Shown here piece after piece: positions 48,305 to 51,965 of a DNA stretch of 64,000 nucleotides (position 1 is the first letter of the stretch; each line of letters begins with the position of its first letter). Source of the stretch: Pseudemcibacter aquimaris. Lineage in GTDB: Bacteria > Pseudomonadota > Alphaproteobacteria > Sphingomonadales > Emcibacteraceae. The DNA lies in assembly GCF_028869115.1 (NCBI RefSeq), contig NZ_CP079800.1, positions 3,013,501 to 3,077,500 of the forward strand, given 5' to 3'. The translations under genes and the position numbers were made by a program. Below the pieces are notes generated by a model that was not told the origin of the DNA, searched no databases, and was given only the letters and a program-made list of their open reading frames with translations.

Positions 48305-48811
48305 ATGATGGATAATCTTCCGCGTAACTTGCTAATCATTTCGGCTGTAATCGTTTCCTTTCTGGGCGCCGCTTCGCTTTATTTTGTCAGACAAGATTAC
48401 CAAGCTGATAGTGTTATTTTTGATACTAGTCGCAATATTGCAATTCTGGGCTATGACACAGTGGCTTATCATTCCGATCGTGAAGCCGTAGTCGGCAATA
48501 TGGATTATCAGGTAGAGTGGGCGGGTTCAACATGGCTTTTTGCCAGTCGAAAAAACCGTGATTTATTTGCTGAAAAACCAAATAATTACGCACCGCAATA
48601 TGGCGGATACGACCCACTTGGCATATCAAAAGGGTACACGAACCCAACCGACCCAACCGTATTCACCGTTGTTGCCGGCAGATTATATTTACATTATTCC
48701 GAAGATTTCAGAACCCACTGGAACGAGGACCGCGGTACAAACATGGTCCTCGCCAACAGTAATTGGGCTTTTATCCGTGAAAGATTGCTTAATCAGCAAA
48801 ATGCTGAATAA
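48305..48811 (+). CDS. Membrane-anchored YHS-domain protein
   Basis: A single N-terminal membrane segment (NLLIISAVIVSFLGAASLYF) is followed by a region of about 135 residues with a YHS-like core: ILGYDTVAYHSDREAVVGN ... VEWAGSTWLFASRKNRDLFAEKPNNYAPQYGGY. Such proteins are usually found with metal or redox enzymes and may bind a metal, but the function is unsettled. It follows the dehydrogenase gene after 20 bases and may be co-transcribed. It converges on the M13 peptidase gene, four bases apart. Confidence 0.82.
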   Translation: MMDNLPRNLLIISAVIVSFLGAASLYFVRQDYQADSVIFDTSRNIAILGYDTVAYHSDREAVVGNMDYQVEWAGSTWLFASRKNRDLFAEKPNNYAPQYGGYDPLGISKGYTNPTDPTVFTVVAGRLYLHYSEDFRTHWNEDRGTNMVLANSNWAFIRERLLNQQNAE

Positions 48812-48815
48812 GAAA

Positions 48816-50879
48816 TTACCAGATTTTCACCCGGTCTTCCGGTTTGATATAAAGCGCATGACTTTCATCCACATCAAAAGCGTCATAAAAGGCATCAATG
48901 TTATATACGATGCCGTTGACGCGGTATTGATCCGGTGCATGTGGGTCCGTTTGAATTTGAGTGACTAATGCCTCGTCACGGATTTTGGACTGGAACGCTT
49001 GCGCCCAACCAATGAAGAAACGTTGATCGCCTGTAAGCCCATCGATAACCGGTGCCTCTTTACCATCCAATGACATTTTATAAGCTTTATACGCAATGCT
49101 AAGACCGCTCAAGTCACCAATATTTTCACCGAGTGTGAATGTACCATTTACATTGGTACCCTCAACTGGTTCATAGGCATCATACTGCGCGACGAGCGCT
49201 GATGTGAGATCCGCGAATTTTTCTTTATCTTCATCAGTCCACCAGTTTTCAAGCGCACCATCGCCATTATAACGGCTGCCGCTATCATCGAAACCATGAC
49301 CAATTTCATGGCCGATGACACCGCCGATACCACCATAATTGACCGCATCATCCGCTGGCATATTGAAGAATGGCGGTTGTAGGATTGCCGCTGGGAACAC
49401 GATTTCATTCATGGTTGGATTATAATAAGCATTAACCGTTTGCGGGGTCATAAACCATTCCGTCTTGTCAATCGGCCCACCAAGTTTTGCCAGTTCACGG
49501 TTATGGGTTGTTAAGGCAGACCTTTCAATATTACCCGCATAATCATCGGCCTTAATCTCTAGCATGGAATAATCTTTCCATTTGTCAGGGTAACCGATTT
49601 TCGGTGTAAATTTCGCAAGCTTCGCTAAGGCCTTCTCTTTCGTTTCTGGTCCCATCCAATCAAGCTCTTTAATACTTTCGCCATATGCTTTGGTCAGATT
49701 ACCCACAAGTTCCACCATGCGGGCTTTAGCATCCGGCTTAAAATGCTTGGACACATAAACTTCGCCAACGACTTCGCCAAGGTTACTGCTAACCGCTGAC
49801 ACAGCCCGTCGCCACATTGGACGTTGTTCTTCAACACCGCTTAGTGTTTTTGAATAAAATTCAAAATTTTGTTTATCCATATCTTCGTTTAAGCGGCTCG
49901 CCATATCATTAACAAGCGACCAACGGAAATATGTTTTCCATGTTTCAAGATCAACGGACGCGAACAGACCATTTAAACCTTCCATGTAACTTGGCTGGTT
50001 GATGATAACACTTTCAACATCAGCAGCACCCGTGATCGCAAGGAAGTTATCGACATCAAGATTTGACAATAATGCGCTTAAATCAGCGCGATTATATTTA
50101 TTGTAGCGTTTGTTGGCATCACGGTTATCTTCTTTTAACCAATGATGTTCGGCTATTTGGGTTTCCAGTGCCATGATCTCATTTGCATCAGCGCTAACAC
50201 CCGCCAATTCCATCATTTTGGTAATATGGTCGACATATTTCGCGCGAATATCCACGGATTTTTCATCATCATTAAAATAATATTCGCGGTCCGGTAACCC
50301 TAATCCACCCTGCCAAGTCTGAATTGCATATTGGGTCGGCTCTTTGGCATCATTACTGATAAACATCGGAATAGGGTTGTTAAAACCGTATTTTCCTGCA
50401 TCCGCAATATAATCAGATAACCCTTTTAAATCTGTAATTGCATCAATCGCCGCAAGTCTTGCTTCAAGCGGTTTTGTACCCAGTGCATTTCGGGTTTCCA
50501 TATCCATATATGATTTATATAAATCACCGACTTTTTGTTCTGAACTACCGACCGCTGCGCCAGACGATGCTGCTTCCTCAATAATCTTTCTTACGTCTTC
50601 TTCAGCATTATCACGCAGTACATGAAATGCACCATAACGGCTTTTATCGGCCGGAATTTCAGTATTTTTAAACCAGGTGCCGCTGACATACTGATTAAAA
50701 TTATCACCAGGGTGGACCGTATCATCCATATTTTCAAACGCGATTCCCGAAATTTGATCAGATCCAATCATTTGTAATTCCTGATCAACTTGGTTTTCTT
50801 GATTTGTGTTTTCTGTGTTATCACAACCAATTAATAGGGCCGCTACTGCAGCCATCGTCGCAAATTTTGTAAATTTCAT
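48816..50879 (-). CDS. M13-family (neprilysin-like) zinc metallopeptidase lipoprotein
   Basis: A lipobox (ALLIGC) anchors this peptidase in the envelope. The N-terminal M13 domain begins near residue 45 (ENMDDTVHPGDNFNQYVSGTWF), and the catalytic domain has HEIGHGFDD (zinc ligands at about residues 524 and 528) and the downstream ENIGDLSGL with the third ligand Glu. It degrades short peptides in the periplasm. I set the start at the ATG at 50879, preceded by GAGGG at good spacing; a TTG sits just before it. The region upstream, shared with a candidate small RNA, carries a Zur-like palindrome, which is notable because this is a zinc enzyme. Confidence 0.92.
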   Translation of the reverse strand: MKFTKFATMAAVAALLIGCDNTENTNQENQVDQELQMIGSDQISGIAFENMDDTVHPGDNFNQYVSGTWFKNTEIPADKSRYGAFHVLRDNAEEDVRKIIEEAASSGAAVGSSEQKVGDLYKSYMDMETRNALGTKPLEARLAAIDAITDLKGLSDYIADAGKYGFNNPIPMFISNDAKEPTQYAIQTWQGGLGLPDREYYFNDDEKSVDIRAKYVDHITKMMELAGVSADANEIMALETQIAEHHWLKEDNRDANKRYNKYNRADLSALLSNLDVDNFLAITGAADVESVIINQPSYMEGLNGLFASVDLETWKTYFRWSLVNDMASRLNEDMDKQNFEFYSKTLSGVEEQRPMWRRAVSAVSSNLGEVVGEVYVSKHFKPDAKARMVELVGNLTKAYGESIKELDWMGPETKEKALAKLAKFTPKIGYPDKWKDYSMLEIKADDYAGNIERSALTTHNRELAKLGGPIDKTEWFMTPQTVNAYYNPTMNEIVFPAAILQPPFFNMPADDAVNYGGIGGVIGHEIGHGFDDSGSRYNGDGALENWWTDEDKEKFADLTSALVAQYDAYEPVEGTNVNGTFTLGENIGDLSGLSIAYKAYKMSLDGKEAPVIDGLTGDQRFFIGWAQAFQSKIRDEALVTQIQTDPHAPDQYRVNGIVYNIDAFYDAFDVDESHALYIKPEDRVKIW

Positions 50880-50987
50880 CAATTACCCTCTGGTTAAAAT
50901 TTCTGCTTAATTTTGAAAGAATGAAGTCTGAATTATTTTTAAAATGAACACAAGAATTATTATTTTGCAAAAAAATGAAAAAAGAGC

Positions 50988-51020
50988 TTGATATAATATA
51001 ACATTATTGTTATGTTATAT
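50988..51020 (+). promoter_or_regulatory. Promoter with overlapping Zur-like palindrome
   Basis: TTGATA (50988-50993), a 17-base spacer and TATGTT (51011-51016) form a plausible promoter on the plus strand. The inverted repeat ATATAACAT-N7-ATGTTATAT (50996-51020) covers the spacer and the -10, where a repressor would act. Its half-sites (TATAACAT/ATGTTATA) resemble Zur sites, but the spacing differs from the E. coli consensus. Confidence 0.45.
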
Positions 51021-51021
51021 C

Positions 51022-51117
51022 GTCTCTTGATTTAGATTGTGTTAAAAGAGACTTTAATAACTTCCCCCTCTCTTATCGGCCCCCTTTCCCAATTAAGGTG
51101 GGCCGATTATTTTTTTA
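51022..51117 (+). ncRNA. Candidate trans-acting small RNA with intrinsic terminator
   Basis: The unit has three parts. A 5' hairpin pairs GTCTCTT (51022-51028) with AAGAGAC (51046-51052). A single-stranded pyrimidine tract (CTTCCCCCTCTCTT, 51061-51074) is complementary to Shine-Dalgarno-like sequences. A strong terminator pairs ATCGGCCC (51075-51082) with GGGCCGAT (51100-51107), followed by TATTTTTTT. The promoter above would start it near 51023. The nearest protein gene ending upstream on this strand is 2.2 kb away, so the terminator does not serve a coding transcript. It could instead be an attenuator in the leader of the methyltransferase gene at 51180. No similarity to a known RNA family is claimed. 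Confidence 0.5.
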
Positions 51118-51179
51118 TTCTAACATATTGGCAGATGCAGCTTTTTCGATATAATTTTTAGAAAACACGGATTCTAAAT

Positions 51180-51965
51180 ATGTTTCAAGATGTGGTCGAG
51201 CTTAGCAGTTTTTATAGTTCCCCTTTAGGGAAGGTCACATCACGCCTGATCAGAAGACAGATTAAAACTCTATGGCCATCCGTTAAAGGCATGGATGTCA
51301 TGGGCCTTGGTTATGCAACGCCTTATCTTAAGAACTTCAGGGACGAAGCAGATCATACATTCGCTATTATGCCATCACAGCAAGGGGTGATCAGATGGCC
51401 CCGCTATAAGGATCATGATAAAGACCAATATGGCAGGTATAAGGGAAACCTGACAGCACTCGCCCGGGAAACTGACCTACCGGTGAAAGATGCCAGCCAG
51501 GACAGAATAATCTTGGTACACTGCCTTGAACATACCGATCACAGTAAAGCCATGCTGCGCGAAGTATGGCGTACGCTTTCACCAGGGGGACGCGTTATGA
51601 TCATTGTGCCAAGCAGGCTTGGCCCATGGTGCAGATCGGAATCAAATCCGTTCGGGCATGGTAAGCCATTCAGCACATCGCAGTTAAAACAGCTTTTGTC
51701 ACAAAACATGTTAAGCCCGACGCGCTGGACATCGGCATTATATTTGCCGCCTTTTAAAAGCAGAACCATGTTAACGGCGCTGCTTACCCTTGAAAAAACA
51801 GGGCGGCGTTGGTGGAACCAATTCGCCGGGGTCCTGATCATCGAAGCAGAAAAACAGATTTATGCCGCCAACCCGGTTGAGGGCAGCAAAATGAAAATAG
51901 CAGAACCAATTGCCGTTGGCACCCAAATGACAAAATCATCATTAGTCACGAGTGATGACGTATAG
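51180..51965 (+). CDS. SAM-dependent methyltransferase (type 11 fold)
   Basis: A class I methyltransferase-like fold is suggested by MDVMGLGYATPYLKNF (motif I region, near residue 38), the DRIILVHCLEHTDHSKAMLREVWRTLSPGGRVMIIVPS segment, and GHGKPFSTSQLKQLL. Glycine-rich motif I is weaker than usual (GLGYATPYL), a known trait of this alphaproteobacterial subgroup. The acceptor is unknown. The end overlaps the convergent metW gene by 24 bases. The start follows a terminator-like hairpin, leaving a short 5' leader. Confidence 0.75.
   Translation: MFQDVVELSSFYSSPLGKVTSRLIRRQIKTLWPSVKGMDVMGLGYATPYLKNFRDEADHTFAIMPSQQGVIRWPRYKDHDKDQYGRYKGNLTALARETDLPVKDASQDRIILVHCLEHTDHSKAMLREVWRTLSPGGRVMIIVPSRLGPWCRSESNPFGHGKPFSTSQLKQLLSQNMLSPTRWTSALYLPPFKSRTMLTALLTLEKTGRRWWNQFAGVLIIEAEKQIYAANPVEGSKMKIAEPIAVGTQMTKSSLVTSDDV

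Follow-up and report, generated by a model that had tools for sequence, protein, structure and literature searches.

A candidate small RNA gene with an exposed pyrimidine tract, conserved within its genus, between the M13 peptidase and methyltransferase genes of Pseudemcibacter aquimaris

The window, i.e. the whole 64,000-nucleotide stretch of Pseudemcibacter aquimaris DNA analysed here, is part of a single 3.37-Mb contig from a bacterium that, judging from the known habitat of its group, we take to be marine. The element described here is located in an intergenic gap between an M13 metallopeptidase gene on the minus strand and a methyltransferase gene on the plus strand. Upstream on the plus strand, the first ORF that matches a protein family (YHS) ends at 48811, 2.2 kb away, in agreement with the original prediction; a further, mechanically called plus-strand ORF ends at 48968. 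The features of the locus are as follows.

48816–50882, minus strand: M13 metallopeptidase gene (Peptidase_M13_N and Peptidase_M13), the divergent neighbour, not part of the RNA
50988–50993, plus strand: -35-like hexamer TTGATA of the putative sRNA promoter (promoter scan)
51008–51021, plus strand: conserved box TGTTATGTTATATC with an extended -10 element (TG, then TATGTT at 51011–51016)
51022–51117, plus strand: putative sRNA gene of about 90–95 nt (fold, genus matches and conservation)
51022–51052, plus strand: predicted 5' hairpin GTCTCTT/AAGAGAC (fold)
51056–51074, plus strand: predicted single-stranded tract AATAACTTCCCCCTCTCTT / AAUAACUUCCCCCUCUCUU, the candidate seed
51075–51116, plus strand: predicted intrinsic terminator, consisting of a hairpin (51075–51107) with a bulged U and a T run (51110–51116)
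51128–51155, plus strand: predicted methyltransferase promoter TTGGCA-N16-TATAAT, downstream of the terminator (11/12 consensus match)
51180–51965, plus strand: methyltransferase gene (Methyltransf_11/23), the downstream neighbour, not part of the RNA

All of the parts originally described from the sequence, namely a promoter-like sequence, a 5' hairpin, an open pyrimidine tract, and a terminator in an intergenic gap, are present at 50988–51117. In the promoter, TTGATA and TATGTT are separated by a 17-nt spacer and match the consensus at 9 of 12 positions, with TG preceding the second hexamer, and the box TGTTATGTTATATC ends directly before the putative transcript start. The transcript and its exact ends are predicted from these sequence features. 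The arms of the 5' hairpin, GTCTCTT (51022–51028) and AAGAGAC (51046–51052), enclose a loop of 17 nt. The minimum free energy of the 96-nt sequence is -28.1 kcal/mol, compared with -14.53 +/- 2.84 kcal/mol for 200 shuffled sequences (z -4.78), none of which folded as well. Promoter-like matches alone are not rare in this region (8 in 2.5 kb versus 7.2 +/- 2.8 in shuffled sequences), and the GC-rich terminator is not listed by a simple terminator scan, probably because its stem is bulged. The case for this RNA therefore rests on conservation.

Strong matches (E 2e-18 or better) were found by DNA search in 9 of the 13 genomes of the genus, including the window genome. A covariance model built from these nine sequences matched the same 9 of 13 genomes, and elsewhere in the family it produced weak matches alone (22–27 bits). 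Conservation of the hairpin, tract, and terminator in relatives, which the original prediction had put forward as a check, was thus observed. Each of the nine copies lies between the M13 peptidase and methyltransferase genes. Across the nine genomes, the 14-nt promoter box has a mean pairwise identity of 0.984 (0.60 for the shuffled box), and the RNA up to the end of the tract one of 0.852, or 0.786 when most of the terminator is included. The 20 nt just before the box show a mean identity of 0.591, and the upstream and downstream flanks show 0.559 and 0.569, respectively (shuffled controls, 0.500 and 0.521); shuffled sequences other than the box generally gave 0.48–0.52. The flanks have thus drifted almost as far as shuffled sequences, whereas the RNA and its promoter are conserved. 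A C/GTTG motif followed after 17 to 19 nt by the TG-box was matched in eight of the nine carriers; the exception, G002, contains CTTGA one base nearer the box. These data point to a conserved promoter of its own, as expected of an independently transcribed sRNA.

The tract is nearly invariant among the nine genomes, the only differences being one C-to-T change in G001 and one extra C in G002. It is predicted to be unpaired in all nine folds, with a mean unpaired probability of 0.85–0.99, and thus has the predicted properties of a conserved, accessible seed. The stem and T run of the terminator are also kept in the nine genomes, consistent with an intrinsic terminator. In the 5' helix, 94.3% of the cells in six modelled pairs are paired and no both-sided changes are found; in G007, the hairpin is predicted to form via a different pairing. 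In the terminator helix, both-sided changes are found at 4 of the 12 modelled pairs, although one of these four is unpaired in six of the nine genomes. The covariation score of this helix was reached by 4 of 500 shuffles, the number of pairs with both-sided changes by 8 of 500, and the further pair types by 78 of 500. When the structure was slid by +1 column, the covariation score was slightly higher (0.193 compared with 0.187), yet 56% of the cells were paired compared with 92%; the covariation term of RNAalifold was small (-0.5). The covariation is therefore thin, and these nine close sequences support the structure without proving it.

A similar pattern could in principle arise if only a promoter and a terminator were conserved and the transcript were a by-product, or if a tiny gene started from a GTG in the hairpin loop. 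The promoter box is indeed the most conserved part, and in eight of the nine genomes the GTG frame, as read by script, keeps its phase as far as the tract extends. However, near-invariance applies to every base of the tract rather than to codon positions alone, the frame is shifted within the tract in G002, the GTG of G007 is located elsewhere in the hairpin, and translation would have to continue through the terminator. We regard these explanations as highly improbable; the near-invariance of the tract at every base and the run of the frame into the terminator make constraint at the RNA level more likely than a tiny coding gene.

The original prediction had named an attenuator of the gene at 51180, the methyltransferase gene, as the main alternative. 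A cis-acting leader of this kind (attenuator or riboswitch) would start near 51022, and its terminator would set the read-through. In every one of the nine carriers the element occupies this gap in the same orientation, and its 5' end lies 158–174 nt before the start codon in the eight carriers in which the script found the start, as would be expected of a leader. In all nine carriers, however, the methyltransferase gene appears to possess its own promoter, TTGGnn-N16-TATAnT, located between the terminator and the start codon about 11–30 nt past the terminator stem. In addition, the predicted structures show no alternative antiterminator fold, Rfam 15 yields no match at the gathering score, either here or in the rest of the window, and both G012 and other-genus genomes have the methyltransferase gene without a convincing match to the element. 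The conserved separate promoter suggests that the terminator most likely ends a transcript of its own and that the methyltransferase gene is probably not reached by terminator read-through only. The promoter arrangement thus disfavours an attenuator, which we consider quite unlikely, and favours an independently transcribed RNA.

The RNA was not detected by the covariance model in the remaining 4 of the 13 genus genomes (G004, G005, G011, and G012). Three of these, G004, G005, and G011 (the last being 53% complete), are also without a methyltransferase match at E 1e-20. G012 (L053) keeps both the M13 and methyltransferase neighbours, separated by a 189-nt gap with no recognisable copy of the RNA. 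In the methyltransferase tree, G012 is placed among the carriers but with a support of 28, so that loss of the RNA rather than its late gain is only suggested. With the same gene gap and no RNA, this genome offers a natural null comparison.

In a search of the order, matches at E 0.01 or better came from 9 of 147 genomes, all within this one genus out of 56; the filters were stricter, lose weak matches, and could miss a diverged relative. Eight genomes of another genus gave 22–27 bits; by eye, these matches look like terminators between other genes, and no tblastn match to the neighbour genes of the window was found in these genomes, so they were rejected as distant homologues. A pattern scan of GTDB genomes yielded 25 hits. 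Eight of them, at 73.9 bits or more, correspond to the known relatives; among the remaining 17, four were listed at E up to 1 with 23.9 bits or less, and 13 were not listed there. A viral pattern scan yielded seven hits, none above 21.9 bits. The best Rfam match near the element was RF02454, ncr982 of Bacillus (22.4 bits, E = 1; gathering score, 50), which also consists of a pyrimidine tract followed by a terminator, and this match is taken as chance or convergence.

From these results, a lineage-restricted sRNA gene is very likely to be real. We further consider it probable that the gene encodes a genus-restricted, independently transcribed, trans-acting sRNA of about 90–95 nt with a C/U seed. 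Of the trans-acting RNA of roughly 95 nt originally proposed, the independent RNA of about 90–95 nt with an exposed pyrimidine tract is thus well supported by its conservation and by the tract being predicted unpaired in 9 of 9 genomes; trans action, as well as any Hfq dependence, repression, or target, is what we infer beyond this. According to this reading, the extended -10 promoter and the intrinsic terminator would belong to the RNA itself, a free-standing transcript ending ahead of the methyltransferase gene, which is promoted separately. The two ends of the RNA would be protected by the 5' hairpin and by the terminator, which together would keep the 19-nt C/U-rich stretch open, and this tract would most likely serve as the seed, pairing in trans with A/G-rich mRNA stretches as C-rich alphaproteobacterial sRNAs do. 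The most likely outcome of such pairing would be that ribosome entry is blocked.

Searches of the open-access literature found no sRNA work on Emcibacter, as judged by title, and none on Kordiimonadales, so the element adds a sharply delimited sRNA candidate to an alphaproteobacterial family for which such work was not found in that literature. Several known RNAs may work in a similar manner. Excerpts of the published accounts describe alpha-r14 (NfeR1) of rhizobia as an alphaproteobacterial sRNA with unpaired C/U-rich anti-Shine-Dalgarno motifs, in which each of three hairpins carries CCUCCUCCC in its unpaired parts (PMC10746234). The element described here differs from alpha-r14, as portrayed in those excerpts, in having two hairpins and one tract, CUUCCCCCUCUCUU, with no CCUCCUCCC. 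In the excerpted account of GsrN, a lineage-restricted sRNA of Caulobacteraceae encoded near the ecfG stress regulators, the most conserved part is a C-rich element in the 5' loop, which pairs with G-rich mRNA stretches (PMC5869019). Compared with GsrN as so described, the tract in our candidate is a linker and the gene is located beside the M13 peptidase gene. The CcsR RNAs, which are also alphaproteobacterial sRNAs, carry a C-rich motif. According to the excerpted source, CcsR1–4 of Rhodobacter sphaeroides are cut from the 3' UTR of ccaF1 (PMC8625941), whereas the present element appears to have a separate promoter, with the nearest upstream family-matched plus-strand ORF (YHS) 2.2 kb away. 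RoxS and FsrA of Bacillus subtilis are likewise described, in the excerpts of PMC8216469, as binding mRNAs through C-rich regions, but they belong to an unrelated phylum and no homology is shown. Judging from these excerpts and by analogy, the element and all of these RNAs may work similarly; they differ in architecture, origin, or phylum, and we claim no relationship between them.

As one possible target, the original prediction had proposed the divergent M13 peptidase gene, via an AGAGGG sequence in its leader. Among the nine M13 leaders, AGAGGG occurs in that of the window genome only, and six of the nine (including that of the window genome) hold a GGG run. The best pairing energies of the M13 leaders ranged from -8.0 to -23.3 kcal/mol in the nine carriers. 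The G008 leader (-23.3 kcal/mol) is the only one clearly beyond 200 shuffled leaders (0/200), and the next, that of G010 at 0.06 versus shuffled leaders, is one for which the start codon was wrongly chosen by the script. The start codon was also wrongly chosen in G009, and the leader alignment covered 6 of the 9 carriers, with G001, G002, and G010 left out (lipoprotein pattern). In the window genome, the M13 start region pairs with an energy of -10.2 kcal/mol and ranks 8th of 53 start regions; this gene is thus not outstanding among the window genes. The restriction of AGAGGG to the window genome and this rank do not support the M13 gene as a specific target, although the G-rich stretches of the leaders count against its rejection.

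Nor did the broader proposal of pairing with Shine-Dalgarno regions gain from the comparison with start regions: pairing of the tract with those of the window did not exceed that of shuffled tracts matched in composition (the difference to gene interiors was reached by 37 of 100 shuffled tracts and the mean energy by 83 of 100). The pattern AAGAGAGGG-N2-10-ATG occurs 19 times in the 13 genomes, whereas its reversed control occurs 10 times. Eleven of the predicted products that follow AAGAGAGGG and an ATG are at least 40 aa long, and none of these is common to two carriers. Two recurrent families found after the seed and ATG, a 48–49-aa protein (G003 and G005) and a 286–289-aa protein (G005 and G012), were discarded, as three of the four places are in RNA-less genomes. 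In a search for a long antisense partner, the 16-nt complement with up to three mismatches gave per-genome counts not above the reversed control. Shine-Dalgarno pairing by the predicted seed is therefore possible but unproven, since no shared or enriched target was detected by pattern or duplex energy.

The C/U tract may alternatively titrate an RNA-binding protein with no mRNA pairing. The presence of one unpaired, nearly invariant stretch flanked by two hairpins, together with no detectable mRNA partner, would be compatible with such a protein-binding RNA. However, the tract is present once, and RNAs acting as protein sponges usually carry several copies of the binding site; we know of no binding protein for this C/U motif. 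We therefore give this possibility little credence and retain the seed as the preferred function of the tract. The near-invariant open 19-nt tract amid drifted flanks is a clear place for seed mutation.

The promoter box may provide a route to the regulator of the RNA. When up to one mismatch is allowed, TGTTATGTTATATC is found 52 times across the 13 genomes, compared with 10 for the reversed control. Exact TGTTATRTTATATC accounts for 23 of the 52, all in the nine carriers and none listed in the four non-carriers. These 23 comprise the 9 boxes at the RNA, 1 inverted copy at 50990–51003, and 13 boxes elsewhere. Of these 13, five are found ahead of flavin amine oxidase genes, two ahead of a [2Fe-2S] subunit gene, and two ahead of a DUF2336 gene; another three sit next to a tonB gene that is oppositely oriented, and the last is unclear. 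The Pfam assignments cover both 2Fe-2S proteins and one each of the five amine oxidases, the DUF2336 proteins, and the TonB proteins; the others were named by eye on the basis of sequence similarity. In the window genome, two amine oxidase genes (Pfam on one) carry one-mismatch boxes, and the two-mismatch box shows a small excess (54 versus 32).

The inverted copy, on the minus strand, faces the M13 gene and forms, together with the sRNA box, a 32-nt near-palindrome (50990–51021) in the window genome. By eye, G001 contains a degraded version of this near-palindrome, and the other carriers do not keep it.

The distribution of the box raises the unlikely prospect of a small, genus-specific TGTTATRTTATATC regulon in which the RNA serves as the regulatory arm and is co-activated with flavin amine oxidases, a DUF2336 protein, and a subunit of a 2Fe-2S oxidoreductase; a Fur-family regulator might be in control. 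If true, the RNA would be an sRNA that responds to nutrients or metals, and it would belong to a lineage for which none was found in the literature. The asymmetric box may be only a strong extended -10 element, and any regulator of it is speculation. A Fur-family regulator was suggested by TGTTATATAATAACA before znuA of the window genome, which shares the left half of the box. Control of the RNA by Zur was set aside and kept as a lead only, because the right half of the box, ATATCG, mismatches the TGTTATATAATAACA palindrome and is the same in all nine carriers. TGTTATATAATAACA itself is near-palindromic and is located upstream of znuA outside the window (G000:C1:2798283-2798297); comparable sites lie ahead of at least two TonB-receptor genes, which points to a possible Zur-like regulon.
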